Origin: Sphingobacteriales bacterium TSM_CSM
GTDB taxonomy: Bacteria; Bacteroidota; Bacteroidia; Chitinophagales; UBA2359
Assembly: GCA_002212725.1 (NCBI GenBank)
Contig: MTCR01000103.1
Location: 1 to 64,000, forward strand
Length of the DNA: 64,000 nucleotides
Direction: 5' to 3'
Positions 30,134 to 43,858 of the stretch are shown here, one piece after another. Every line of letters starts with the position of its first letter. Within the stretch, counting starts at the first letter, position 1. A model generated the notes under the pieces. It saw only the letters and a list, made by a program, of their open reading frames with translations, was not told the origin of the DNA and did not search any database. The translations under genes and the position numbers were made by a program.

Positions 30134-30165
30134 TTTGAAACAGGGTAAAAAACCTGTTACCTTTG
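30134..30165 (+). promoter_or_regulatory. Bacteroidota-type promoter (TTTG-N20-TACCTTTG) of the PhyH/ABC operon
   Basis: TTTG at 30134-30137 and TACCTTTG at 30158-30165 are separated by exactly 20 nt. It closely resembles the promoter at 26216. Because the transcript should begin at about 30170, translation of the permease must start after this point. Confidence 0.8.
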
Positions 30166-30182
30166 TCCTGAAACCCTTTGTT

Positions 30183-31019
30183 TTGTCAACAGCTAATATT
30201 GCGGGCAAATTGCAACATCATTCAAACAAGCCACCGGCAACGGGTAAATATTTGGCAGGCATTTACTATTTCAGGCTTTTTACCGCAGCCATGGTACAAC
30301 GTGCCCTGAAAGCAAGGTATGCGCAAACCCTGTTGGGCAGTTTGTGGATTGTGGTGCAACCTTTGTTAACCCTTTCGGTTTTTGTGTTGGTGTTTGATAA
30401 ACTTGCCGGTATTTACAAAGAAAGTCAGCCCTATGCATTATTTGCCTTTATAGGTTTAATAGGGTGGAACCTGTTTTCACATATCAGCCTTCAGGGCGGC
30501 AATGCGGTGGTACAACATCGCGATTTGTTAAAGCGCCTCTATTTTCCAAAAATTACGCTGGTACTGGTACAGGTAATTATTGGACTTATAGATTTTTTTA
30601 TTGGCTTGGCTCTTATATTGTTTGCCTTGTTGCTGCTGGGTATTGGTTTTTCGGGAAAACTGTTGTTGTTGCCCTTTTTCATCCTGCTCAACCTGCTTAC
30701 CGGGGTAGCTGTTGCCCTTTTTATGAACATTATTACGGTAAAAAAGCGCGATTATTACCAGGCTTTACCTTATTTTATTAACTTTGGTATGTGGGTTACA
30801 CCTGTGTTTTACCCCGTTTCTATTGTACCTCAAAATTACCGGTTTTTGCTCTATTGCAATCCTATGTCGGGTATAATAGAAGGTTACAGGACTTGCATTT
30901 TTAACACAGGCAGTATTTCTGCCGCATATTTTCCGGTGTATGTTCTAATTTTGCTGATTACCCTTGCAGGGTTTTACCGGTTTAAAGAAAAAGAACACAC
31001 TTTTGTTGACACTGTTTGA
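30183..31019 (+). CDS. ABC-2 type permease of a Wzm-like (polysaccharide/O-antigen-type) exporter
   Basis: About 278 residues with six predicted transmembrane segments. The family signature is clear: VQRALKARYAQTLLGSLWIV before the first membrane helix, HRDLLKRLYFPKITLVLVQV in the middle, VTPVFYPVSIVP, and the NPMSGIIEGYR segment before the last helix. In Wzm/Wzt exporters this subunit forms the channel that moves a lipid-linked chain across the inner membrane. The start is uncertain: TTG at 30183 lies just after the likely transcript start, TTG 30210 is an alternative, and the first ATG (30291) would cut off the amphipathic helix. The ATPase partner is at 37289, seven genes on. Confidence 0.85.
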   Translation: MSTANIAGKLQHHSNKPPATGKYLAGIYYFRLFTAAMVQRALKARYAQTLLGSLWIVVQPLLTLSVFVLVFDKLAGIYKESQPYALFAFIGLIGWNLFSHISLQGGNAVVQHRDLLKRLYFPKITLVLVQVIIGLIDFFIGLALILFALLLLGIGFSGKLLLLPFFILLNLLTGVAVALFMNIITVKKRDYYQALPYFINFGMWVTPVFYPVSIVPQNYRFLLYCNPMSGIIEGYRTCIFNTGSISAAYFPVYVLILLITLAGFYRFKEKEHTFVDTV

Positions 31020-31048: not shown

Positions 31049-33241
31049 ATGCGAAACGTTTTTAAACAACCCGAATTACAACAGCAGTTCGACCAATTCG
31101 GGTACGTAGCCGTTCCTTTCCTTGCGCCCGACGAAGTGGCCGCTTTACAAAACGCCTATTTCGAAACCCTTGCCCTGAAAGGTGGCAACATTACCGGCGA
31201 AGAAGTAAAAACAGTGGCGGTAAAAGAACGTATAACCTACGATTTTACCTTTATTGATAAAAATATTGACTACAAGCGAAAGGTATTTGACATTATTACC
31301 GCCGCTTTTAAAAAACATACCGACCATTATTTGGCCGATTACAAGCCAATTATTGCCAACTTCATTTATAAACCCGAAAACGACGGCGAAGTACCCCTGC
31401 ACCAAAACTGGGCTTTTGTTGACGAAAGCCAATATACCTCTGTTTCGGTATGGGTGCCATTGGTTGACAGCAATGAGCAAAACGGCACACTGCAAATGGT
31501 AAACGGCAGCCATAAACGGTTCGGACAAATTCGCGGGCCGCTCGTTCCCTGGGAGTTAGACCAGATTAAATCCGATATTATTGACCACTACCTTACGCCC
31601 ATGAATGTTCCGGCAGGGCAGGCGGTGGTTTTAGATGACAGCATTGTGCATTACTCCGATAGAAATCTTACTTCACAACTTCGCCTGGCCATTCAGCTTA
31701 TTATGATACCACGCGAAGCTACCGCCATACACTACCATTACAATACCCAATCGGGCGGTAAAGAAGTGGAAGTATGGGAGGTGGACGAGAACTTTTTTGC
31801 CGAATTTAACCCTTGGAAAATTCCCGATGAGGTAAAGGTAACAGGCAAAGTTCCATTTTCCCATGAATTTATTGACGTGCAGCAATTTGAAGAACGGTTT
31901 TTCATGCCGCGCTACGACAAAGTAACGGTGCCGGCCGCCCTGCCGCCTTCTATGCAGGCTACATACCACAACCCGCCCACAGCCGTAAAACTACCCTTGC
32001 CGGGCGGTTTTGTATTTTTAAATCCGCAGCAGCAGCAACATTTTGAAGAAAAAGGCTGGGTGGTTTTAGACCTGCTATCAGACGAAGAAGTACAGGAGTT
32101 GCTCCATTTTTACCATAACCAACCCAAACAACAGGTGCCCGAACACGGTTTCCATGTTAGCCTCGACAGCAGCGATACCCGCTTTACCGCCGCCGTAATT
32201 GACAAACTTACCCAAATAATGGGCAATAATGCCAACCGGTTTTTTAAAGACTACAAACTTTTTACCGGCAGTTTTGTGGTTAAAGAACCCGGTAAGCAAG
32301 GTATTGTACCCCCTCATCAGGACTGGACTTTTGTTGACGAAACCAAATACTTTTCGGCTACCCTTTGGACACCGCTGCAAGATGTAAACACCGACAACGG
32401 CGCATTGGGTGTAATTTCGGGCAGCCAAAACTATTTTAACCACCCGCGTCCTTCGCCTGCGCCCGTTTTTAAAGCCCCTTTTGACGCACATGTTTTTACC
32501 GTTTTTCCCTACCTCGACATTATTGAACTTAAAGCCGGGCAGGCGCTTATGTTCAACAACCGAACCATACATGCCTCGCCACCAAATGTTTCGGGGGCGC
32601 CACGCATTGCTGCCGGCATTGGCATTACCCACAAAGATGCTCAACTTATTCACTGCTATCTGGAACCCGGCCGGCAACAGCCTACGGTAGGAATTTATAC
32701 GGTAAACGAACAATTTTTTCCGGTTTACAACAATGAAAAACTCAAAAGCATGTACTTGTCGGGGCGTTCGCTTGCCGATGACGGTTGGGAAAAAATTGCA
32801 GAAACACCCCTGCAAGCACCCGAAATAAGCGCCGGCGAGCTGACAGCCAAAATAACCCAATCGGGCAATGTGTTTAACTGGGCACTGGCCGCCAAAATGG
32901 CCGCCTTGTTCGGCTACTCGCTGCCCGGTGCCAATAGTGCTACCGGTACAGGTTCAAATAACCATACCGATAACAATACACAACCTGACTTGCAAGCCGA
33001 AACATGGTTGCAGGTTTATACCCCCGGCCGCATTTGGGCAGAGTTGAAACATAAGTTCGGCCGCCTGCAACAACACCCCGAAATTTATACCCCTGCAAAT
33101 GTTGCCGCCGAACTGCTGCAACGCGGTAAACAATCGAAAGTAGTGAAAGCGGGTGCAGTTGTAACTGCAACGGCTGTTTTGCTTCGGGTTTTTTGGCCGG
33201 TGTTGCGGTTTTTGTGGCAAAACAGGCGGTCATCTAAATAA
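31049..33241 (+). CDS. Fused double-PhyH protein with C-terminal membrane helix
   Basis: This 730-residue protein contains two phytanoyl-CoA-dioxygenase-like (PhyH) domains. Domain 1 (about 1-300) has LHQNW with His118 and Asn120 where the iron-binding Asp is expected, a distal His in DDSIVHYS, and Arg in SQLRLA. Domain 2 (about 325-610) has a normal His423-x-Asp425 in PPHQDW, the distal His in NRTIHASPPN, and Arg in GAPRIAAG. After a linker, a hydrophobic helix with AVVTATAVLLRVFWPVLRFLW anchors the C-terminus. Domain 2 resembles the next gene; domain 1 resembles the gene at 42917. ATG 31049 matches the start of the other copies; longer starts overlap the permease end. Substrate unknown. Confidence 0.9.
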   Translation: MRNVFKQPELQQQFDQFGYVAVPFLAPDEVAALQNAYFETLALKGGNITGEEVKTVAVKERITYDFTFIDKNIDYKRKVFDIITAAFKKHTDHYLADYKPIIANFIYKPENDGEVPLHQNWAFVDESQYTSVSVWVPLVDSNEQNGTLQMVNGSHKRFGQIRGPLVPWELDQIKSDIIDHYLTPMNVPAGQAVVLDDSIVHYSDRNLTSQLRLAIQLIMIPREATAIHYHYNTQSGGKEVEVWEVDENFFAEFNPWKIPDEVKVTGKVPFSHEFIDVQQFEERFFMPRYDKVTVPAALPPSMQATYHNPPTAVKLPLPGGFVFLNPQQQQHFEEKGWVVLDLLSDEEVQELLHFYHNQPKQQVPEHGFHVSLDSSDTRFTAAVIDKLTQIMGNNANRFFKDYKLFTGSFVVKEPGKQGIVPPHQDWTFVDETKYFSATLWTPLQDVNTDNGALGVISGSQNYFNHPRPSPAPVFKAPFDAHVFTVFPYLDIIELKAGQALMFNNRTIHASPPNVSGAPRIAAGIGITHKDAQLIHCYLEPGRQQPTVGIYTVNEQFFPVYNNEKLKSMYLSGRSLADDGWEKIAETPLQAPEISAGELTAKITQSGNVFNWALAAKMAALFGYSLPGANSATGTGSNNHTDNNTQPDLQAETWLQVYTPGRIWAELKHKFGRLQQHPEIYTPANVAAELLQRGKQSKVVKAGAVVTATAVLLRVFWPVLRFLWQNRRSSK

Positions 33242-33255
33242 TACAGCACCCAGTT

Positions 33256-34266
33256 ATGGATTTTACCTTCCACAATTCCGGTCACCGGCAACAATTTGAA
33301 CAAAAAGGCTATCTGGTGGTTAACCTGCTGACCGCTGCCGAGGTAGCGGAATTGTTGCAGTTTTACCACTCGCTGCACCATAGCCATAAAACCGGCTACG
33401 GGTTTCATGTAAGTTTAGATAATACCGACCCCGAATTTGTTTGCAACATCAACAACCGAATTACGGCCGTTTTGCAGCGTAGCATGGAGCAACTATTTGG
33501 CAATTTCAGGCTGTTTTCGGGCAGGTTTCTGGTGAAAGATCACAACCGGCTGGGTTTGGTAACTCCGCATCAGGATTGGTCGTTTACCGATGAAACCCGG
33601 TCAGTATCGGCTACGGTATGGGTTCCGTTGCAGGATACAACCATCCAAAACGGCGCCATCGGGGTAATTGAGGGAAGCCACCTTGCCTATACCGGCATTC
33701 GGGCCACGCCGCTGCCGGTTTTTAAAGTACCTTTCGATGATTGTTCACCCCAAATTTTTCCATATCTCAAAATCATTGATATGCAGGCCGGACAGGCACT
33801 GCTTATGAACAACCGGCTAATACACGGCTCGCCACCCAACCTTGGCAGCAACGCGCGTATTTCGGCAGGTGCCGAAATCATTCCGCAATCGGCGCCGCTC
33901 TACCATTACTACCTGCACCCAACTGAAAACATGGTTATGCAGTACGCCATTGACGACACTTTTTTTTACCATTACAGCAATGCCAAACTGTTGCAACTTT
34001 ACCAAAAACAAGAAACACCGCAAGGATTAAAACTTATTGGTAAACTTCCATACAACCATGCGCAGCAAACCTGGGAAACGGTAAGTCAAATCATTCAATC
34101 GGGCTATGTGCACCCATTCGGGCCGCTGATGCAGCAAATTTACAACTACAGTTACCATCTTTCCGACACTCCACCTTTTGCGTCCAATGTGCCGCAAACA
34201 ACCCCCAACCTCAAATCACAGCAAAAGTCGGTTTGGAATTGGGTAAAAAGCAAATTGCAACCATAA
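33256..34266 (+). CDS. PhyH-domain 2-oxoglutarate/Fe(II) dioxygenase-like protein
   Basis: This 336-residue protein has a complete PhyH motif set: His105-x-Asp107 in PHQDWSFTDE, distal His in NRLIHGSPPN, and the 2-oxoglutarate-binding Arg in SNARISAGAE. It is closest to domain 2 of the fused protein upstream; both share GFHVSLD near residue 50 and the xIHxSPPN box, which suggests a tandem duplication. The C-terminal region has a conserved IDDTFFYHYSN element seen in all copies of this locus, then a Pro/Lys-rich tail. It follows the fused gene after 14 nt. Substrate unknown. Confidence 0.9.
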   Translation: MDFTFHNSGHRQQFEQKGYLVVNLLTAAEVAELLQFYHSLHHSHKTGYGFHVSLDNTDPEFVCNINNRITAVLQRSMEQLFGNFRLFSGRFLVKDHNRLGLVTPHQDWSFTDETRSVSATVWVPLQDTTIQNGAIGVIEGSHLAYTGIRATPLPVFKVPFDDCSPQIFPYLKIIDMQAGQALLMNNRLIHGSPPNLGSNARISAGAEIIPQSAPLYHYYLHPTENMVMQYAIDDTFFYHYSNAKLLQLYQKQETPQGLKLIGKLPYNHAQQTWETVSQIIQSGYVHPFGPLMQQIYNYSYHLSDTPPFASNVPQTTPNLKSQQKSVWNWVKSKLQP

Positions 34267-34278
34267 AAACACAATTAA

Positions 34279-35262
34279 ATGAACAATAATATAATACGAG
34301 ATGCCCGTTTGGAAAAAGCCATGGACACCGATGGTTTTTTTGTGGTAAAATCATTTTTAAACACGGAACAGTTAACAGCCCTTGAAAACCTGTATAATGA
34401 ATACCGGCCTACCGATGAAATAAACAAATACCGGTTTTATGCCAGCACATTTTCTACAAACCTTGCTTACCGGCAACGGTTAAAGGAGCAAATACCACAT
34501 ATTTTCAAACCGTCGCTCGAAAAATTGTTTGCCGGCTATAAGTTTATTGGTGCCAATTTTATACTAAAAATACCGGGAGGCAACAGCCGTTTGGAAATTC
34601 ATCAGGACACCTCCCTGCTCGACGAAAGCCTGTTTACCCCGGTAAATGTGTGGTGCCCCATGACCAATGTAACCGTAGAAAATGGTACTTTGTACCTGCT
34701 GCCGGGTAGCCACCGTTTTTTTAACAGCATACGCATACCGGCCATTAAATACCCCTATGAAGATATTTTTCAGCATGTGTTAAGCCATCTTATACCCATT
34801 GAAGTTAACCGGGGCGATGCGGTTATTTTTAACTCAGGCATTATTCATTACTCGCCCGACAACCAAACCAACCGCGAGCGTTTGGTGGCCGATACCTGCA
34901 TAACCCACCAAAATGCACAGGTGCGTATTTACCATAAAGATATTGACAACCCCGACAGCCCCCTCGAAATCATTAATCAGGACGATGATTTTTTGGAAAA
35001 ATTCCTTTATTTCAGGGAAAATATTTTTGCCCGGCCCGAAGAAGGCACTACCATAGGATTTATTCCTTACAGCCATAAAACAGTAAATGAAGCTGAATTT
35101 GATGCTTTGGTACATAAGCTAACCAATAAATACACTTTCCGGCAATACAACTTTGCCGGAGACGAGTTAAAAACAGTTTATTTCCCGGCTTTGGGCGGTG
35201 TGGCCAAATTACAGCAACTTGCACATAAGGTAATGCATATGTTTCAGCCTCAAAATGCTTAA
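34279..35262 (+). CDS. PhyH-domain 2-oxoglutarate/Fe(II) dioxygenase-like protein
   Basis: This 327-residue protein has the PhyH motif set: His108-x-Asp110 in IHQDTSLLDE, distal His in NSGIIHYSPDN, and Arg in RERLVAD. It shares WCPMTNVTVENGTLYLLPGS with the next gene (there WCPLQDTTQENGTLYVLPGS), so these two form a third subtype. The N-terminal helix (DTDGFFVVKSFL) is like the other copies. It starts 12 nt after the previous gene. Reaction is probably Fe(II)/2-oxoglutarate-dependent hydroxylation of a small or lipid-linked substrate, by family analogy only. Confidence 0.9.
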   Translation: MNNNIIRDARLEKAMDTDGFFVVKSFLNTEQLTALENLYNEYRPTDEINKYRFYASTFSTNLAYRQRLKEQIPHIFKPSLEKLFAGYKFIGANFILKIPGGNSRLEIHQDTSLLDESLFTPVNVWCPMTNVTVENGTLYLLPGSHRFFNSIRIPAIKYPYEDIFQHVLSHLIPIEVNRGDAVIFNSGIIHYSPDNQTNRERLVADTCITHQNAQVRIYHKDIDNPDSPLEIINQDDDFLEKFLYFRENIFARPEEGTTIGFIPYSHKTVNEAEFDALVHKLTNKYTFRQYNFAGDELKTVYFPALGGVAKLQQLAHKVMHMFQPQNA

Positions 35263-35368: not shown

Positions 35369-36262
35369 ATGGTACGAAGTTATTTTAAAAATCCGGAGCA
35401 TGAAAAATCGTTTTTTGAAAACGGTTATCTGTTACTTCCTTTTTTAGAACCCGATGAAGTGGCAGAGTTACAAAGGCTTTACCACCGCTTTATGCCCGGC
35501 AACGTGGACGATTTGTATGCCAGCACCCTGTTTAACACGGCAGAAGTAAACAGAACGGTAAATGAGTCCATGCGGCAAATTATGAGCCCGGCCACAGCGC
35601 GCATTTGCGAAGCAGGTAAACTGTTGGGCGGTTCATTTTTGGTAAAATCGTCCCGGCATACCACCAACTTGCCACTTCACCAGGATTGGAACATTGTTGA
35701 AGAAACCACCTATGCTTCTGCCATGCTTTGGTGTCCGTTGCAGGATACCACACAAGAAAACGGAACATTGTATGTACTGCCGGGCAGCCACCGGTTTTTC
35801 TCCAACTATCGTTCGGGAGCCATGCCAAGCAGGCGGGTAGCGGTTACGGAGGCACTTCAGACCTATGTAAAAACCATTCCGGTTAAAGCCGGACAGGCGT
35901 TAATTTACCACCCCGCCTTATTTCATGGCTCGCACCCCAATCATTCGGGGCAATTGCGCATAGTAGCAGCAGGTTCTACGGTTCATGCCGATGCACGTTT
36001 GGTGTACTATCACCTGAACCGGCAAACCAACCACATAGAAATGTATGCCGCCGACAATGATTTTTACCTGAATGTAATACCTTTGCTGGAAGATGGGAAA
36101 TTGCCGCCCGATGCCGTTTTACTGCAAACCATAGATGCCGTTTTATTTTATCCCGATGCAGCCGATTTAGCGGCAAAACTAAACCCCAATCATAGCACAG
36201 ACACCCGCCAACCCCATAATTCATTTTGGAATCGACTGAAAACCCTCATCAGCAACCGGTAA
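35369..36262 (+). CDS. PhyH-domain 2-oxoglutarate/Fe(II) dioxygenase-like protein
   Basis: This 297-residue protein has His104-x-Asp106 in LHQDWNIVEE, distal His in PALFHGSHPN, and Arg in GQLRIVAAG. It pairs with the previous gene by its WCP and LPGS boxes. The ATG at 35369 (MVRSYFKNPEHEKSFF) aligns with the starts of the other copies. A gap of 106 nt before it is the largest inside the operon; no promoter element was found there, so read-through from 30134 is assumed. Substrate unknown. Confidence 0.9.
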   Translation: MVRSYFKNPEHEKSFFENGYLLLPFLEPDEVAELQRLYHRFMPGNVDDLYASTLFNTAEVNRTVNESMRQIMSPATARICEAGKLLGGSFLVKSSRHTTNLPLHQDWNIVEETTYASAMLWCPLQDTTQENGTLYVLPGSHRFFSNYRSGAMPSRRVAVTEALQTYVKTIPVKAGQALIYHPALFHGSHPNHSGQLRIVAAGSTVHADARLVYYHLNRQTNHIEMYAADNDFYLNVIPLLEDGKLPPDAVLLQTIDAVLFYPDAADLAAKLNPNHSTDTRQPHNSFWNRLKTLISNR

Positions 36263-36269
36263 CAACAGT

Positions 36270-37274
36270 ATGAAAAAAGTATTGCGTTTTTGGTGGACTG
36301 TTCCGGTGGTGGTAACGCTTGTAGTGTCATTGTTCCGTCGGTTATTGCCGGCCGTAAAAAGACAAGAAAAAGGAGCAATTTCCGCTAATGATGAGCCTGA
36401 ATATGCCGGCGAAAACAACGCCTTGTACACCTCTGATGATGTAAAAAATTTTTATAATCAATACACCGGCAAATTTGTGCAGGTATATGGAAAGGTAATA
36501 CAGGCATTCAGAACTACCGATATTACCAAACTGCTCGATTACCAAATTGAAAGCATAGGATTAAAACCCGCCCAGACAGTGTTAGACGCCGGGTGTGGGG
36601 TAGGAGGGCCGGCCATTTATTTTGCCCAGAAAACAGGAGTGCAAATATCGGCGCTCACCATATCCGATGTGCAGGCCGTACAAATGCAGGAAGCAGTAAA
36701 ACAGGCAGGGCTAACCCATAGTATAAGAGTTCAAACCGGCGATTACCACCATTTAGACCGTATTTATCCGCCCGAAAGTTTTGACACAATCTTTTTTCTT
36801 GAATCTTTCGGGCATGCCCACCACCCAAGGCAGGTACTGAACAGTGCATGGAACGTGCTGAAACCGGGTGGCACGCTTTATATTAAAGACCTTTTCAGAA
36901 AAATAGCACCATCAGACGTTTTGCAGAAAAAAATAGACAGCGAAATAACAAAAATAAATGCCGCCTACCGGTATAATATTTCCGATTTATATCAAATTTT
37001 GCATCAGGTCCGGCAAATCGGGTTTGTAGTAATGCACCTGAAAACGGTTGATATTCCGTTGCACGATTTTGAAAATCTTACTATTTCCAATGATTTTCAG
37101 GAACTGACCGGCGTGGGTAAAATAGACAACTGGGCAGAGTATGTGTTTCCGGTAGAATTTTTTGAACTAAAATGCTATAAACCCCTGCACAGTTTAGACA
37201 GAGGACTTGACCGCTATTTTTTGCAAAACCTGTTTCATATACAGGTAAACAACCGCAACCCACATGAGTTGTAG
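36270..37274 (+). CDS. Membrane-anchored class I SAM methyltransferase
   Basis: This 334-residue protein has an N-terminal membrane helix (about residues 7-23, WTVPVVVTLVVSLF). The SAM-binding motif I is LDAGCGVGGPAIYFA (Asp106 at its start), followed by ALTISDVQAVQMQEA, FFLESFGHAHHPRQVL and WNVLKPGGTLYIKDLF. This combination resembles C-methyltransferases acting on isoprenoids or sterols (the SMT/GPP methyltransferase type), so a lipid-like methyl acceptor is plausible. Assignment of the acceptor is inference. It follows the last operon PhyH gene by 7 nt and precedes the ABC ATPase by 14 nt. Confidence 0.85.
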   Translation: MKKVLRFWWTVPVVVTLVVSLFRRLLPAVKRQEKGAISANDEPEYAGENNALYTSDDVKNFYNQYTGKFVQVYGKVIQAFRTTDITKLLDYQIESIGLKPAQTVLDAGCGVGGPAIYFAQKTGVQISALTISDVQAVQMQEAVKQAGLTHSIRVQTGDYHHLDRIYPPESFDTIFFLESFGHAHHPRQVLNSAWNVLKPGGTLYIKDLFRKIAPSDVLQKKIDSEITKINAAYRYNISDLYQILHQVRQIGFVVMHLKTVDIPLHDFENLTISNDFQELTGVGKIDNWAEYVFPVEFFELKCYKPLHSLDRGLDRYFLQNLFHIQVNNRNPHEL

Positions 37275-37288
37275 GCTAAAAAGCATGT

Positions 37289-38566
37289 ATGAAGGAACGA
37301 ATTTTGATAGCCGAAGAAATTAGCAAAACATACTTGAAAGACGACCGTACACAGTCTTTCTGGGCAAGTGCGGCATTGGGGAAGTTGTTTGGACAAAACA
37401 AACCGGCACCAACAACCAACACTTTTGAAGCCCTGCACAACATAAGTTTTACCTTACCGGAATGCAGTGTTTTGGGCATTATAGGCCGCAACGGGGCAGG
37501 CAAGAGCACGCTGCTGCAAGTGTTAAGCGGCATAGTAGCGCCCACAAAAGGTAATGTATGGTATAACGGCCGGATAGCAGCAGTTTTAGATGTGGGTACC
37601 GGTTTTCATCCCGATTTAAGCGGGCGGGAGAACATCTATTTCAGTGGCGCCTTGTGGGGCATGGACAAGCGTTTGGTAAATAGCCGTTTTGATGCAATAG
37701 TAGATTTCAGCGGCATAGCAGCTTTTATTGATACGCCGGTTAAGCATTATTCAAGCGGCATGTATGTTCGGTTGGCGTTTTCGGTTCTGGCATTTTTAGA
37801 TGCCGATATTTTATTGTTTGATGAGGTGCTGGCGGTGGGTGATATGCAGTTCAGGCTTAAAATATTTGAACGGATAAAGGAAATTACCCGCTTAGGAGCA
37901 GTGGTGATAATGGCCAGCCATGATATGTGGCAGATAAACCAGTTGTGCAACCGGTGTATTTGGCTCCACAAAGGTAAAATGCTGGCTGATGGCACTCCAA
38001 ATGCAGTGACAGAGAAGTATATTGAGAGCTACTGGCTGGAAGCAATGGGATATGCACCCGATGCCCAGGTAAGCGGAAACATGGTCAACCCCCTTACAAT
38101 AAGAACCTGGCCCGAAGCAGAACAGCCGGGTAATGCAGTGTTGCGGTTGAGCAGGGCACAAATTATGGTTGAGGGTTTGCCTCAAAGCGTACCAATTTAC
38201 ATGAATACCGGCTTTTACTTTGAAATAGCTTACACCAAGTTACAAAGCGGCTTTCCTACCAATTTTTACCTTACTGTTTTTCATATATCCGGAAATCCTG
38301 CGCTATCAACCGTAAACCAGCTGGAGGCAATTGATTCGGAAACCGGCTCTTATGTGCTGCGTTGCTATTTTCCGCCCAATTTATTTAACCACGGATTGTA
38401 CTATATTGACCTTTGGGCGGGAGAATCTACCATGCAATACCTGCTTCATTTTCCAAAAGTCGTTTTTTTTCAGGTTCTATGTTTGCCCGAATTAGAGTTA
38501 TCGGTTTCGCGCGATGTACATGCCCATATAAGGCCGATATTTGAATGGCAATGGAAACGGGACTAA
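37289..38566 (+). CDS. Wzt-type ABC exporter ATPase with C-terminal carbohydrate-binding-like domain
   Basis: This 425-residue protein has the ABC motifs in order: Walker A GRNGAGKST (Lys72), YSSGMYVRLAF in the signature position, Walker B DILLFDEVLAVGD, and H-loop MASHD. The YSSGM signature and LDVGTGFHPDLSGRENIY are typical of Wzt/TagH-type exporters. The C-terminal ~150 residues (from about LRLSRAQIMVEGL to the tryptophan-rich end) match the position of the Wzt C-terminal substrate-binding domain. It pairs with the permease at 30183. It ends the operon and is convergent with the UbiA gene (14-nt gap). Confidence 0.9.
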   Translation: MKERILIAEEISKTYLKDDRTQSFWASAALGKLFGQNKPAPTTNTFEALHNISFTLPECSVLGIIGRNGAGKSTLLQVLSGIVAPTKGNVWYNGRIAAVLDVGTGFHPDLSGRENIYFSGALWGMDKRLVNSRFDAIVDFSGIAAFIDTPVKHYSSGMYVRLAFSVLAFLDADILLFDEVLAVGDMQFRLKIFERIKEITRLGAVVIMASHDMWQINQLCNRCIWLHKGKMLADGTPNAVTEKYIESYWLEAMGYAPDAQVSGNMVNPLTIRTWPEAEQPGNAVLRLSRAQIMVEGLPQSVPIYMNTGFYFEIAYTKLQSGFPTNFYLTVFHISGNPALSTVNQLEAIDSETGSYVLRCYFPPNLFNHGLYYIDLWAGESTMQYLLHFPKVVFFQVLCLPELELSVSRDVHAHIRPIFEWQWKRD

Positions 38567-39575: not shown

Positions 39576-41252
39576 ATGCCCGAAAATATAGCCCTGTTGT
39601 TTACTAAACTAAAAGCGCCGGCACCCGTAGGCTGCATTGCTCCCTGGTTTATTAGAGCAATGGGGGTTATTTATCTGGTTGCTTTGGTGCCTTTTTTGTT
39701 TCAGTACCAAGGTTTATGGGGGCAAAACGGGTTATTGCCTGCCGCAAAACTTTTACAAACGGCTTTTAATTCCGAAGGGTGGTATGCCCTGCTGCATTTT
39801 CCAAGTTTGCTGTGGCTGTATCCTTGCTCTGATGTTATGCTGCTTGTTATTATAGCAGGCGGTTGTGCAGGCGCATTGGGCATGTTGTGTTATGTTGCGC
39901 CACACTGGAGCGCATTGCTTGCCTGGGGTTGCTTTGTATCTGTTACTACTGTTGGCGGCGATTTTTCAGTTATTATTATTGACCTGTTTTTAGCCGAAAC
40001 CGGTTTTTTAACCGTTTTACTGGCATTTTGCCTGCGTTACTTTGGTTATGTGCCGGTGTTGCCGGCATTTTTGCTCAGGTTGCTGTTGTTCAGGCTTTGG
40101 TTTTCAATGGGCATGGTAAAATTTTACTTCCCGGGCGAAAGCTGGCGGAATTTTACTTTTTTCGATTACTTTTTTCCTTTTCAACCCATGCCAACGCCGT
40201 TGGCGTGGTATTTTCACAAGCTGCCTGTTTTCTGGTTTAAATTTACCATTGTCGCAACTTTTATTGTAGAAATGATTGTGCCGTTTTTCGTTTTTTTCGG
40301 CCGTGTTTGGCGCTATGTTGCTGTAGCCTGTTTTACGGCAATTTCGGTGTTAATTATGCTGTCGGGAAATTATGGCTATTTCAACATATTATCAATAGTG
40401 CTAAGTTTGCTGCTGCTGCAAGATGACGATTCTATTTTCGGACATAAAAGCGAGTTGGCACAACCGGCTAAAAATCCCTCCTCAAACTTAACCCGACTGA
40501 TTTGGGTGCTTGTGTTGTGTTTGGGCTTATTTTCGGGTAGTATGCAGGTTGTTTACACCGCCTGGTTATTTTCACCAAATGTATGCAACCCTCAAAACCA
40601 CCTGTGTTATCCTTTTTACTTTGAGGCTGCCAACCGCCTGCCGCCTCCCTTTGGCTGGGTGAACCGCCTGTACCGTATAGCCGCCAATTTTCGCCTGTCA
40701 AACCCCTACGGTGTTTTTAAAGATATTAACCGTTTCAGGGTAGAGCTTAGGTTTGAGGGCAGTTATGACGGCATTAACTGGCAACCGTATGAGTTTAAGT
40801 ATGTGCCATCGGGTTATACACAGGCTTTAAAGTGGTTCGCCCCCTATTATCCTCGTTTAGACCATGTTATGTATTACGAAACGATTGGAGTTGGCGCTTA
40901 TAATGCCAATCCGTTGCCTCCTTTCAGGACGCCGCAAAATCCGCTCAACCCATACTATACGCCCGATAATGCATGGATTTGTAATTTTGTGGCTGCTCTC
41001 CGGAATAACACATACCCGGTAACCGGTTTATTGCAGCACAACCCCTTTGCTGCCCACAAACCTGCATTTGTAAGGGTTCGGGCATACGCACTGCGGTTTA
41101 CCACCAATTCCGAAATGCAGCAAACAGGCCGGTGGTGGCAGGAAAAATACCTGTTTACCGCCTACAATACAGCCGATGACAGACCGTGTAAACCTTTAAC
41201 CAACCTGCAAAACCTGTATGACCGATACCTTCGGGGCGAATTTAATTTTTAA
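39576..41252 (+). CDS. Lipase maturation factor (LMF)-like membrane protein
   Basis: This 558-residue protein has about nine predicted membrane segments in the first 340 residues, then a soluble C-terminal domain. The region WRNFTFFDYFFPFQPMPTPLAWYFHKLP, broken here by loops, and GNYGYFNILSIVLSLLLLQDD match the lipase maturation factor family, in which animal LMF1 helps lipases fold in the ER. The C-terminal domain includes FRVELRFEGSYDGINWQPYE and WFAPYYPRLDHVMYYE, also LMF-like. The role of bacterial members is not established. It is followed after 5 nt by the SnoaL-like lipoprotein gene. Confidence 0.85.
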   Translation: MPENIALLFTKLKAPAPVGCIAPWFIRAMGVIYLVALVPFLFQYQGLWGQNGLLPAAKLLQTAFNSEGWYALLHFPSLLWLYPCSDVMLLVIIAGGCAGALGMLCYVAPHWSALLAWGCFVSVTTVGGDFSVIIIDLFLAETGFLTVLLAFCLRYFGYVPVLPAFLLRLLLFRLWFSMGMVKFYFPGESWRNFTFFDYFFPFQPMPTPLAWYFHKLPVFWFKFTIVATFIVEMIVPFFVFFGRVWRYVAVACFTAISVLIMLSGNYGYFNILSIVLSLLLLQDDDSIFGHKSELAQPAKNPSSNLTRLIWVLVLCLGLFSGSMQVVYTAWLFSPNVCNPQNHLCYPFYFEAANRLPPPFGWVNRLYRIAANFRLSNPYGVFKDINRFRVELRFEGSYDGINWQPYEFKYVPSGYTQALKWFAPYYPRLDHVMYYETIGVGAYNANPLPPFRTPQNPLNPYYTPDNAWICNFVAALRNNTYPVTGLLQHNPFAAHKPAFVRVRAYALRFTTNSEMQQTGRWWQEKYLFTAYNTADDRPCKPLTNLQNLYDRYLRGEFNF

Positions 41253-41257
41253 AGCAA

Positions 41258-41803
41258 ATGAAAACAATTAAGCAAAAGTTAATCTTGTTGGCTGTTTTAA
41301 TGGAGATGCTGTTTGCCTGCAACAACAGCGGTACCGGTAATGTAAGCAATAGCAGTATGCCCGGAAAAGGTCATTTTGTTTCTGATACTTTGGCAATTGC
41401 GAATAACAAAAACGTAGTAAGGCAACTGCATGAGGAAGTATGGAGCAAAGGTAAAATTAACCTTATTGATGCCCTTTATAATGCCAACATGGTTTGCCAT
41501 GTGCCATTAGACAGCCCCTGGACAACAATTGAACGCCTTAAACAAGTTGTTATCAATCACAGGGCTGCATTTCCCGACTGGAAGGAGGAAATTACCCGCT
41601 TAATTGCTGAAGAGGATTGGGTGGTATCAAAATACCGGGTTAGCGGAACCCAAAAAGGCATATTTTGGGATATTGCACCATCGGGCAATGCCATTGCTAT
41701 GGAGGAAGTGGTTGTTTTCAGGTTTGAAAACGGTAAAATTGCAGAACAATGGTCGTATCCAAATTTGTATGAATACAGAAGGCAATTGCTTAATGGTAAA
41801 TGA
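41258..41803 (+). CDS. SnoaL/ester-cyclase-like lipoprotein
   Basis: This 181-residue protein has a lipoprotein signal (LMEMLFAC, Cys at about residue 21). The mature part matches the SnoaL-like (NTF2-fold) ester-cyclase family: NVVRQLHEEVWSKGKINLID, AAFPDWKEEITRLIAEEDWV, and VVVFRFENGKIAEQWSYPN. SnoaL proteins isomerise or cyclise small molecules, but many lipoprotein members have no assigned reaction. It is tightly spaced after the LMF-like gene and overlaps the WD40 gene by ATGA. Confidence 0.85.
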   Translation: MKTIKQKLILLAVLMEMLFACNNSGTGNVSNSSMPGKGHFVSDTLAIANNKNVVRQLHEEVWSKGKINLIDALYNANMVCHVPLDSPWTTIERLKQVVINHRAAFPDWKEEITRLIAEEDWVVSKYRVSGTQKGIFWDIAPSGNAIAMEEVVVFRFENGKIAEQWSYPNLYEYRRQLLNGK

Positions 41804-42873
41804 AAAGCAGAGCTATGAAGAAAAGTTATTTGGCAAAAGCCGTTTTGTTTTACCTGATTCTTCTTTTTTGGTTTTACCTGTTGCAAAACTGCCGGCAAAG
41901 GAGCAGTCAGGTGCCAACCGGCGAAGAAACAGCTGTTGCAGTGCATGACACATCGGAAAACCCGGTTTATAACCTATGGACACCATACGGGGTTTATGCC
42001 GCTTTTTACTCGCCCGATGGCAGGCATATTGCTGTTGGTGGCGCTACAGGCCTCATAGAATTATGGGATGCCGCCACTTTTGAAACCCTGTGTCAGATGC
42101 ATGGGCATACCCGGTCAGCCAATACCACCCTGTTTAGCCCCGATGGAAAGTATATAATTTCGGGCAGTGGCGACAGTACGGTAAGAATTTGGGAGGTGCA
42201 GAACTGCCGCTTAACAGCCACATTGCCCCAACATTACAACGAAACCTACACCACTCTTTACAGCAATTCGGGTAAACTATTTGCTTCTACAGGTGCCGAT
42301 TCCACCGTCATAATCTGGAATGCCCAAACCCAAAAGCCCATATCACAACTTACCGGACATGCCGGCGCTGTTTATTTTGCCTGGTTTTCCGGCAATGAAG
42401 AATACATTGTTACCGGTTCCCGCGACGGGCAGGTTATTTTATGGAACGTTCAAACAGGAAAACCGGTGCGCACCTACAGCGGGCATACCGGCGCTGTTTA
42501 TTGTGTGGTAATGAGCGCCAACGACAGCCTGATAATATCGGGCAGCGGCGATGGTACAGCCAAACTTTGGGAAACAAATTCGGGTAAAAACCTGCAAACT
42601 TACTATGGTGCCCAAGATAAAATTCTGGTAGCCATGTTCAGCCCCGATGAGCAATCGGTCATAGCATCGAGCGGCGATACTTTTATAAGGCAATGGGATA
42701 CCAAAACAGGAGCGCTGCAACAGGTTTTTTCGGGACACAAAGGCATAGTCTGCACCATACATAACAGCCCCGATGGTAAACGGTTGCTTTCGGGTGGCAT
42801 GGACGGTACGGTTAAGGAATGGAGCCTGGATAATGCAAAATTATTGCGAAGTAAAACTCTTTACCAAAAATAG
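41800..42873 (+). CDS. Membrane-anchored seven-bladed WD40 protein
   Basis: This 357-residue protein has an N-terminal membrane segment (LFYLILLFWFYLLQNC), followed by a seven-repeat WD40 propeller with typical blades such as TLFSPDGKYIISGSGDSTVRIW and GHAGAVYFAWFSGNEEYI. The propeller is likely periplasmic and may be a protein-interaction platform. Its ATG at 41800 overlaps the stop of the SnoaL-like gene (ATGA), which suggests translational coupling. ATG at 41815 is an alternative start. No catalytic residues are expected. Confidence 0.88.
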   Translation: MKSRAMKKSYLAKAVLFYLILLFWFYLLQNCRQRSSQVPTGEETAVAVHDTSENPVYNLWTPYGVYAAFYSPDGRHIAVGGATGLIELWDAATFETLCQMHGHTRSANTTLFSPDGKYIISGSGDSTVRIWEVQNCRLTATLPQHYNETYTTLYSNSGKLFASTGADSTVIIWNAQTQKPISQLTGHAGAVYFAWFSGNEEYIVTGSRDGQVILWNVQTGKPVRTYSGHTGAVYCVVMSANDSLIISGSGDGTAKLWETNSGKNLQTYYGAQDKILVAMFSPDEQSVIASSGDTFIRQWDTKTGALQQVFSGHKGIVCTIHNSPDGKRLLSGGMDGTVKEWSLDNAKLLRSKTLYQK

Positions 42874-42875
42874 CC

Positions 42876-42883
42876 TATATTTG
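42876..42883 (+). promoter_or_regulatory. -7 element TATATTTG before the HxN PhyH gene
   Basis: This octamer fits TAnnTTTG and lies 33 nt before the ATG at 42917, just after the WD40 stop. A matching -33 was not found. Confidence 0.4.
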
Positions 42884-42916
42884 CAAAGAACCGGCAATTT
42901 CAAATCCTCTCAACTC

Positions 42917-43858
42917 ATGAACCGTGTATTTTGTGACGACCTGCTGCAACGCCAGTTTGAAACCGACGGATACGTGGTGGTGCCACAGTTTTTAAATGCT
43001 GCCGAAGTGCAAAACCTGTTAACTGCTTACCACAAACCTGACGGCAATATTAACGGTAAGTTTCACCGCACCCTGCAGTTTCAAAGTGTAGCATACAAAA
43101 AAGACCTGAGCATAGCTGTCAAGGAGTTGGTAACCCCCAAAGCGCTCAATCTGCTGCAAGATTACCGCTACCTTTTATCTTCGTTTATGGTGAAAGAGCC
43201 TGAAGCTGATAATGCTTTTGAACTGCACCAAAACTGGAATTTTGTGGAAGAGGACAAGTATCATTCGGTAGTATTTTGGGTTCCGTTAGTAGATACCGAT
43301 GCAAAAAACGGCGCTATGTATGTGGTAAAGGGGTCGAACAGGCTATTGCCGACTTACCGGGGCGGACCCAATATTCCTTCGGTTTTTGAAGCGGTAATAC
43401 CTTATATAAAGGAACACTACCTTACCATTATTCCTCTTAAAGCAGGCGACGCCATTATTTTTGATGACGCTTTGCTGCATTACACCTCTTCCAACCAAAG
43501 CAGCAACACCCGGTATGCCATTGCACAGGTTATGATACCCCGGGTTGCCCGCCCCATACACTACTACCAATCGGCCGAAAATACAGGTAAAAAAATTGAG
43601 GTGTTTGAAATTGACGATGATTTTTACCTATACTACTATAACCGCTACCCGCTTGGCGACTATCCTGCCGATTGCCGGCAAATTGGAACTATTCCCTGTA
43701 GCTCCAAACCTTTAACAATAAACCAGTTTGAGTCTCTGTATCATAAAACAGCATTAACACCCGAAAAACAAAGAAGTGTGTCTGTCACAGATGTGAAGCG
43801 TTTTTTTGTAAAAGTAGGCCAAAAAATTGGAAATGCCATTTTTAACAGCGCTCATTAA
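42917..43858 (+). CDS. PhyH-like protein with His-x-Asn in place of His-x-Asp
   Basis: This 313-residue protein is closest to domain 1 of the fused protein at 31049. It has LHQNW with His104 and Asn106 (codon AAC, as in the fused protein), the distal His in FDDALLHYTSSN, and Arg in SNTRYAIAQ. Both proteins share DD(S/A)-x-x-H-Y and the MIPR box near the C-terminal half. The Asp-to-Asn change at the iron ligand should alter or abolish normal dioxygenase activity; retention of the other ligands argues against simple decay. ATG 42917 matches the start of its homologues. Possible partner of the operon ending at 38566. Confidence 0.9.
   Translation: MNRVFCDDLLQRQFETDGYVVVPQFLNAAEVQNLLTAYHKPDGNINGKFHRTLQFQSVAYKKDLSIAVKELVTPKALNLLQDYRYLLSSFMVKEPEADNAFELHQNWNFVEEDKYHSVVFWVPLVDTDAKNGAMYVVKGSNRLLPTYRGGPNIPSVFEAVIPYIKEHYLTIIPLKAGDAIIFDDALLHYTSSNQSSNTRYAIAQVMIPRVARPIHYYQSAENTGKKIEVFEIDDDFYLYYYNRYPLGDYPADCRQIGTIPCSSKPLTINQFESLYHKTALTPEKQRSVSVTDVKRFFVKVGQKIGNAIFNSAH

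Follow-up and report, generated by a model that had tools for sequence, protein, structure and literature searches.

The first PhyH domain of a 730-aa fusion protein from Sphingobacteriales bacterium TSM_CSM carries His-x-Asn (HxN) at the position of the family's His-x-Asp (HxD) iron motif, and belongs to a coherent subfamily in which this Asn is always accompanied by an Asp four residues before the distal iron-ligand His (position -4). The pairing suggests a metal site that was rebuilt, not lost, and from sequence comparison we consider that the site of this PhyH variant was probably rebuilt. The PhyH family itself is known, while the HxN variant is unreported within the literature searched, where no description of a natural HxN 2-oxoglutarate (2OG) enzyme was found. 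The window, meaning the whole stretch of DNA that was analysed, comprises positions 1 to 64,000 of contig MTCR01000103.1 on the forward strand. The features of the fusion gene are:

31049..33241, + strand: tandem PhyH-PhyH fusion of 730 aa, with HxN domain 1, HxD domain 2 and a C-terminal tail (open reading frame and profile search)
31049..31906, + strand: domain 1, the HxN PhyH domain, 286 aa (PhyH profile; AlphaFold2 mean pLDDT 94.3)
31400..31408, + strand: HxN motif, His118-Gln119-Asn120 (sequence)
31637..31639, + strand: Asp197, at -4 of the distal His, the proposed replacement carboxylate (Asp in 85/85 HxN domains)
31649..31651, + strand: His201, the distal iron-ligand His (sequence comparison)
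31655..31657, + strand: Ser203 (His+2), at a 2OG C5-carboxylate position (equivalent residue in PhyH and EctD, PMC2871039)
31682..31684, + strand: Arg212 (His+11), at the 2OG salt-bridge position (as in human PhyH and EctD, PMC2871039)
31997..32830, + strand: domain 2, a canonical HQD PhyH domain with HQD at 32315-32323 and Asn at -4 (sequence)

Numbered from the ATG at 31049, positions 31400-31408 (CACCAAAAC) are the codons CAC CAA AAC, encoding His118-Gln119-Asn120. Re-reading confirmed the initial annotation, which had described this HxN motif in PhyH domain 1 and had stated that the distal His and the 2OG Arg are retained; both are present, as His201 and Arg212. The PhyH profile PF05721 matches the protein twice (5.2e-39, 135 bits, gathering cut-off 22). 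Domain 1 departs from the HxD...H iron triad of the family in having HQN, with the distal His retained. In PhyH and EctD the 2OG C5-carboxylate is bound at distal His+2 and His+11 (PMC2871039), and S203 and R212 occupy these two positions here. The AlphaFold2 model of domain 1 (pLDDT 94.3, with 91.7 for an HQD control, the PhyH protein at 35369..36262) is predicted to adopt the double-stranded beta-helix fold of PhyH. It gave 401 matches in the PDB (E<=0.001), headed by SnoK, EctD and AviO1; EvdO2, EvdMO1, HygX and SyrB2 are also found, and TlxI (7vbq_B) is among the top matches. Several of these proteins (the EvdO2, AviO1, EvdMO1 and HygX group) are sugar-acting enzymes.

The variant motif is neither an error nor a sign of decay. 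A same-genus orthologue (L010) with 91% amino acid identity has the identical codons CAC CAA AAC, and a sequencing or assembly error is ruled out because these codons are kept despite differences at 44% of synonymous sites. Measured against this orthologue, dN/dS comes to 0.069 in domain 1 and 0.045 in domain 2, and strong purifying selection acts on domain 1 (dN/dS 0.07). Pseudogene decay is ruled out by the value of 0.069 together with the full active-site signature.

Scanning public genomes (mostly Bacteroidota, a few Pseudomonadota) with a profile yielded 38 loci. In an order-wide sample, 52 of 398 genomes had strong matches to the subfamily (E <= 1e-60, including some HxD sisters). The HxN domains, 85 of them distinct, occur Bacteroidota-wide and in a few Pseudomonadota, and since Asn is fixed across all 85 the motif is not due to chance. 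The initial annotation had reasoned that a rare and scattered Asn among homologues would speak against a specialised site; Asn is instead the rule in an entire clade. Across ~340 domains of the subfamily, the residue at +2 of the motif is Asp, Asn or, once, His, and never Ala or Gly. Both His are conserved in all HxN domains, and the Ser/Thr and Arg for 2OG in nearly all (Ser/Thr at His+2 in 54/54, Arg at His+11 in 53/53 with data). An alignment of 21 diverse HxN proteins, 28-58% identical to domain 1, has 16 invariant columns, which include H118, N120, D197, H201, N206 and R212.

Among the loci fetched from 398 Pseudomonadota genomes, HxN was found only in the starting genome, the rest being distant HxD PhyH. 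Ten viral PhyH loci have HxD where the motif was read, with no Asp at -4, and plasmid homologues (Methylomagnum, Oscillatoria, Nostoc) have HxD. Of the two cyanobacterial plasmids, that of Oscillatoria encodes a methyltransferase-UbiA prenyltransferase-PhyH fusion (L133:8174-11500), and that of Nostoc a PhyH fused to glycosyltransferases (L134:12013-16806). Two Pseudomonadota loci encode three-domain PhyH proteins of ~1000 aa with the motifs HAD-HTD-HQN (L044:5724-8687, L047:5871-8834), next to a methyltransferase (L044) or an ABC ATPase (L047). A Sphingomonadales PhyH (L046:5108-6310) has His-Arg-His at the HxD position, a possible three-His site, beside HxD and HxN domains.

When HxN and HxD domains were compared column by column, position -4 of the distal His was the best separator, after +2 itself, among the columns compared. 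Asp was present there in the first 43 of 43 distinct HxN domains and almost never in HxD. A class-wide sample added 11 HxN domains and brought the counts to 54/54 HxN versus 1/218 same-subfamily HxD, and a later order-wide sample, drawn when the rule had already been stated, gave 31/31 new HxN and 0/38 new HxD. Over all samples, the combination that defines the proposed HxN...Dx3H subfamily is found in 85/85 HxN domains, 31 of them after the rule was stated, versus Asp at -4 in 1/256 sister HxD domains. The adjoining residue at -5 varies among Asp, Glu and Cys in HxN. In the 218 HxD domains, position -4 is occupied by His (60), Gln (53), Asn (48) or Ser (17) in 178/218, mostly hydrogen-bond donors; in HxN it is an acceptor, so that the donor/acceptor polarity is reversed. 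Such a swap is the pattern expected of side chains that touch. The simplest reading of the alignment is that Asn120 and Asp197 would be spatial neighbours, with the negative charge shifted from one to the other. In the AlphaFold2 model, Asp197 begins a short loop (197-200) directly preceding the strand of His201.

A quick tree placed three changes to HxN, two of them on starred branches, but an AU test did not reject a single HxN clade (p 0.53), and several independent origins were dropped as statistical proof of coupling. The pairing may therefore represent one historical event kept by selection. A sign test is unsuitable because the independent contrasts number only 2-3. A distant Pseudomonadota PhyH lineage (L118, L122, L125, L129) combines HQD with Asp at -4 ('HADMLVHGS'), and Asp-4 can thus have other roles.

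The fusion gene lies among genes for transport and modification:

30135..31019, + strand: ABC-2 permease (Wzm-like), directly upstream of the fusion gene (profile)
33256..34266, + strand: PhyH, HQD (profile)
34279..35262, + strand: PhyH, HQD (profile)
35369..36262, + strand: PhyH, HQD; source of the control AlphaFold2 model, pLDDT 91.7 (profile)
36270..37274, + strand: SAM methyltransferase of the CMAS/Methyltransf_11 type (profile)
37289..38566, + strand: ABC transporter ATPase with a C-terminal extension (Wzt-like; profile)
42917..43858, + strand: second HxN PhyH gene, with HQN at 43226-43234 and Asp184 at -4 of the distal His (sequence, profile)

In the window, the ABC-2 permease gene is followed by the HxN-HxD fusion, three HxD PhyH genes, the methyltransferase and the ABC ATPase; in related clusters, the ABC ATPases match NF050108 Wzt. 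Among 95 neighbours there are 15 ABC ATPases, 14 ABC-2 permeases, 10 CMAS-type methyltransferases and 5 GT2 proteins. In relatives the HxN gene often comes just after the permease, and glycosyltransferase and radical SAM/SPASM genes recur alongside the ABC ATPases and methyltransferases. The Methylomagnum plasmid cluster combines PhyH with a glycosyltransferase, UbiA, an ABC transporter, a methyltransferase and a sulfotransferase. A promoter scan gave no signal above shuffle level. Because of this gene context and the sugar-acting oxygenases among the structure matches, we infer that the ABC-exporter operon with the HxN fusion probably tailors a glycan or glycolipid that is exported.

The genome of origin (4.9 Mb, 178 contigs) encodes eleven PhyH domains in two clusters, three with HQN (domain 1, the gene at 42917-43858 and one on contig C178, L009:10910-11833) and eight with HQD. 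The second HxN gene in the window, missing from the initial annotation, is located downstream of LMF1-like (lipase maturation factor) and WD40 genes (39576-43858); its nearest relatives share these neighbours (WD40 at L041:6952-8855, LMF1 at L045:6337-9938). The second cluster (L009:5100-13319, contig C178) contains PhyH, ABC ATPase, methyltransferase and sulfotransferase genes, and an HxN PhyH of its own is encoded on the opposite strand.

Our preferred reading, to which we give a little less than an even chance as a whole, is that of a functional HxN Fe(II)/2OG subfamily whose carboxylate has been relocated to Asp-4 and which tailors an exported glycan or glycolipid. Domain 1 would be a member of this conserved and still functional PhyH-type subfamily, in which the carboxylate of the 2-His-1-carboxylate site would have moved, the Asp of HxD becoming Asn and an invariant Asp being gained at -4 (Asp197). 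Asp197 might itself ligate iron in a His-x-Asn...Asp-x3-His site; that Asp-4 is the direct third iron ligand throughout a naturally occurring clade of Fe(II)/2OG oxygenases appears doubtful to us. Alternatively, a second-shell Asp197 could be the acceptor for a hydrogen bond donated by the Asn amide and supply the negative charge, with the Asn oxygen facing the iron. Together with its HxD sisters and the methyltransferase, the HxN enzyme would carry out oxidative tailoring of a glycan or glycolipid, which the Wzm/Wzt-type ABC transporter encoded alongside would export; hydroxylation or a similar oxidation is the most likely step. In this proposal, iron binding by domain 1 is inferred, as are the function of Asp197, the substrate and the reaction. 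The initial annotation had listed an otherwise altered enzyme among its options, and this option gains support because HxN and the compensating Asp-4 are fixed in the clade, the PhyH signature is otherwise complete and domain 1 is under purifying selection. It had also envisaged that another carboxylate fills the site, for which Asp197 is a concrete candidate. In P4H, changing the Asp at the corresponding site to Ala or Gly abolished hydroxylase activity (PMC2767507); no Asn variant was found in the text of that paper.

Unlikely in our estimate, yet the strongest of the other explanations, is that the HxN domains are non-catalytic partners, or bind only metal or 2OG, and that they stabilise an HxD PhyH or make it complete in the way TlxI assists TlxJ; the fusion would then be a permanent heterodimer. 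TlxI is catalytically incompetent, raises the efficiency of TlxJ and has lost the Arg that binds 2OG (PMC12141560), and it is a top structural match of domain 1 (7vbq_B). Besides the fusion in the window, HxN and HxD are fused at about ten to a dozen related loci, elsewhere HxN is mostly adjacent to HxD, and the HxD-HxD-HxN three-domain proteins of Pseudomonadota include HxN as well. Adjacency is not specific to HxN, since HxD PhyH genes also cluster together, and stand-alone HxN genes occur (e.g. 42917-43858 in the window). Domain 1 has not undergone the loss that marks TlxI, as Arg212 is kept, and HxN domains in general, under strong purifying selection, retain the Arg, the Ser/Thr, both His and further PhyH invariants. 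The proposal of the initial annotation that domain 1 is a non-catalytic partner of domain 2 fits the usual fusion or adjacency of HxN to HxD PhyH, and is made less likely by the retained 2OG Arg and both His.

It is also conceivable, though we rate it as rather improbable, that catalysis in HxN enzymes relies on two His plus a water; Asn would then be a weak neutral ligand or lie in the second shell, and Asp197 would serve the substrate or the fold rather than the metal. Human AspH offers a precedent for a carboxylate-free hydroxylase: its site has two His, with a water in place of the carboxylate, and it catalyses hydroxylation but not halogenation (PMC13168262). The distant HxD enzymes with Asp-4 likewise imply that this residue need not be a ligand. 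A role independent of Asn120 would not, however, predict the observed pattern, in which 85/85 HxN domains have Asp-4 and their HxD sisters almost never do.

Least probable is the halogenase-like site of the initial annotation, with a halide replacing the carboxylate: the Asp ligand is absent, SyrB2 is among the structural matches of domain 1 and WelO5-type homologues in several related clusters make halogenated pathway products plausible, but known 2OG halogenases have Gly or Ala at the carboxylate position (PMC12346261), whereas all 85 HxN members have Asn, which equals Asp in size and so provides no vacancy for a halide, no HxA or HxG member exists among the ~340 subfamily domains, a new anion (Asp-4) arises near the distal His, and the HxG motif of the related clusters belongs to a separate protein family absent from the genome of the window. 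These WelO5-family homologues (PF22814, E down to 3e-78) sit on or near HxN PhyH/ABC-exporter contigs of uncultured Bacteroidota (L018:14710-15699, L020:7510-8523, L029:10670-11554, L106-L113). Their motif is HCG (HxG) in most and HCE in three (L042, L075, L032), and a halogenase/hydroxylase switch could be traced through the HxG and HxE versions of this one family that similar clusters carry. If halogenation occurs in the related pathways, the WelO5-family protein is a better candidate than HxN.

Fe/2OG oxygenases are conventionally recognised by their HxD/E...H triad, and its known natural exceptions are mostly losses of the carboxylate (halogenases, AspH). If our preferred reading of a relocated carboxylate is true, the exchange of Asp for Asn with the gain of an Asp near the distal His is a natural experiment in moving it. 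If, more specifically, Asp-4 is the direct third iron ligand, the rewired 2-His-1-carboxylate site may support altered oxidation chemistry. Two-residue swaps in the fusion (N120D with D197N or D197Q) make it testable how ligand position controls oxygen activation, with the canonical sister domain as internal control. For annotation, the motif alone is insufficient to call HxN PhyH proteins dead or halogenases.

Compared with known systems, domain 1 resembles PhyH (PF05721) in its fold, both His, the Ser at His+2, the Arg at His+11 and a Pfam score far above the cut-off, and differs in having Asn for the Asp iron ligand and Asp at -4 of the distal His. The PhyH-like oxygenases of orthosomycin and aminoglycoside pathways (EvdO2, AviO1, EvdMO1, HygX) are among its best structure matches, in keeping with the sugar-related gene context here; EvdO2, the only one of them compared residue by residue, has HQD with Phe at -4. 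With TlxI/TlxJ of fungal meroterpenoids it shares the arrangement of two related double-stranded beta-helix proteins, one with an atypical site, but TlxI is non-catalytic and has lost the Arg that HxN domains retain. AspH is likewise a 2OG oxygenase that lacks the carboxylate at the usual site, but it belongs to another family and has water in the site; we know of no paired Asp-x3-His in AspH. The 2OG halogenases (SyrB2, WelO5, BesD, DAH) have also lost the Asp ligand, but their Ala or Gly makes room for a halide, which the Asn of HxN does not.
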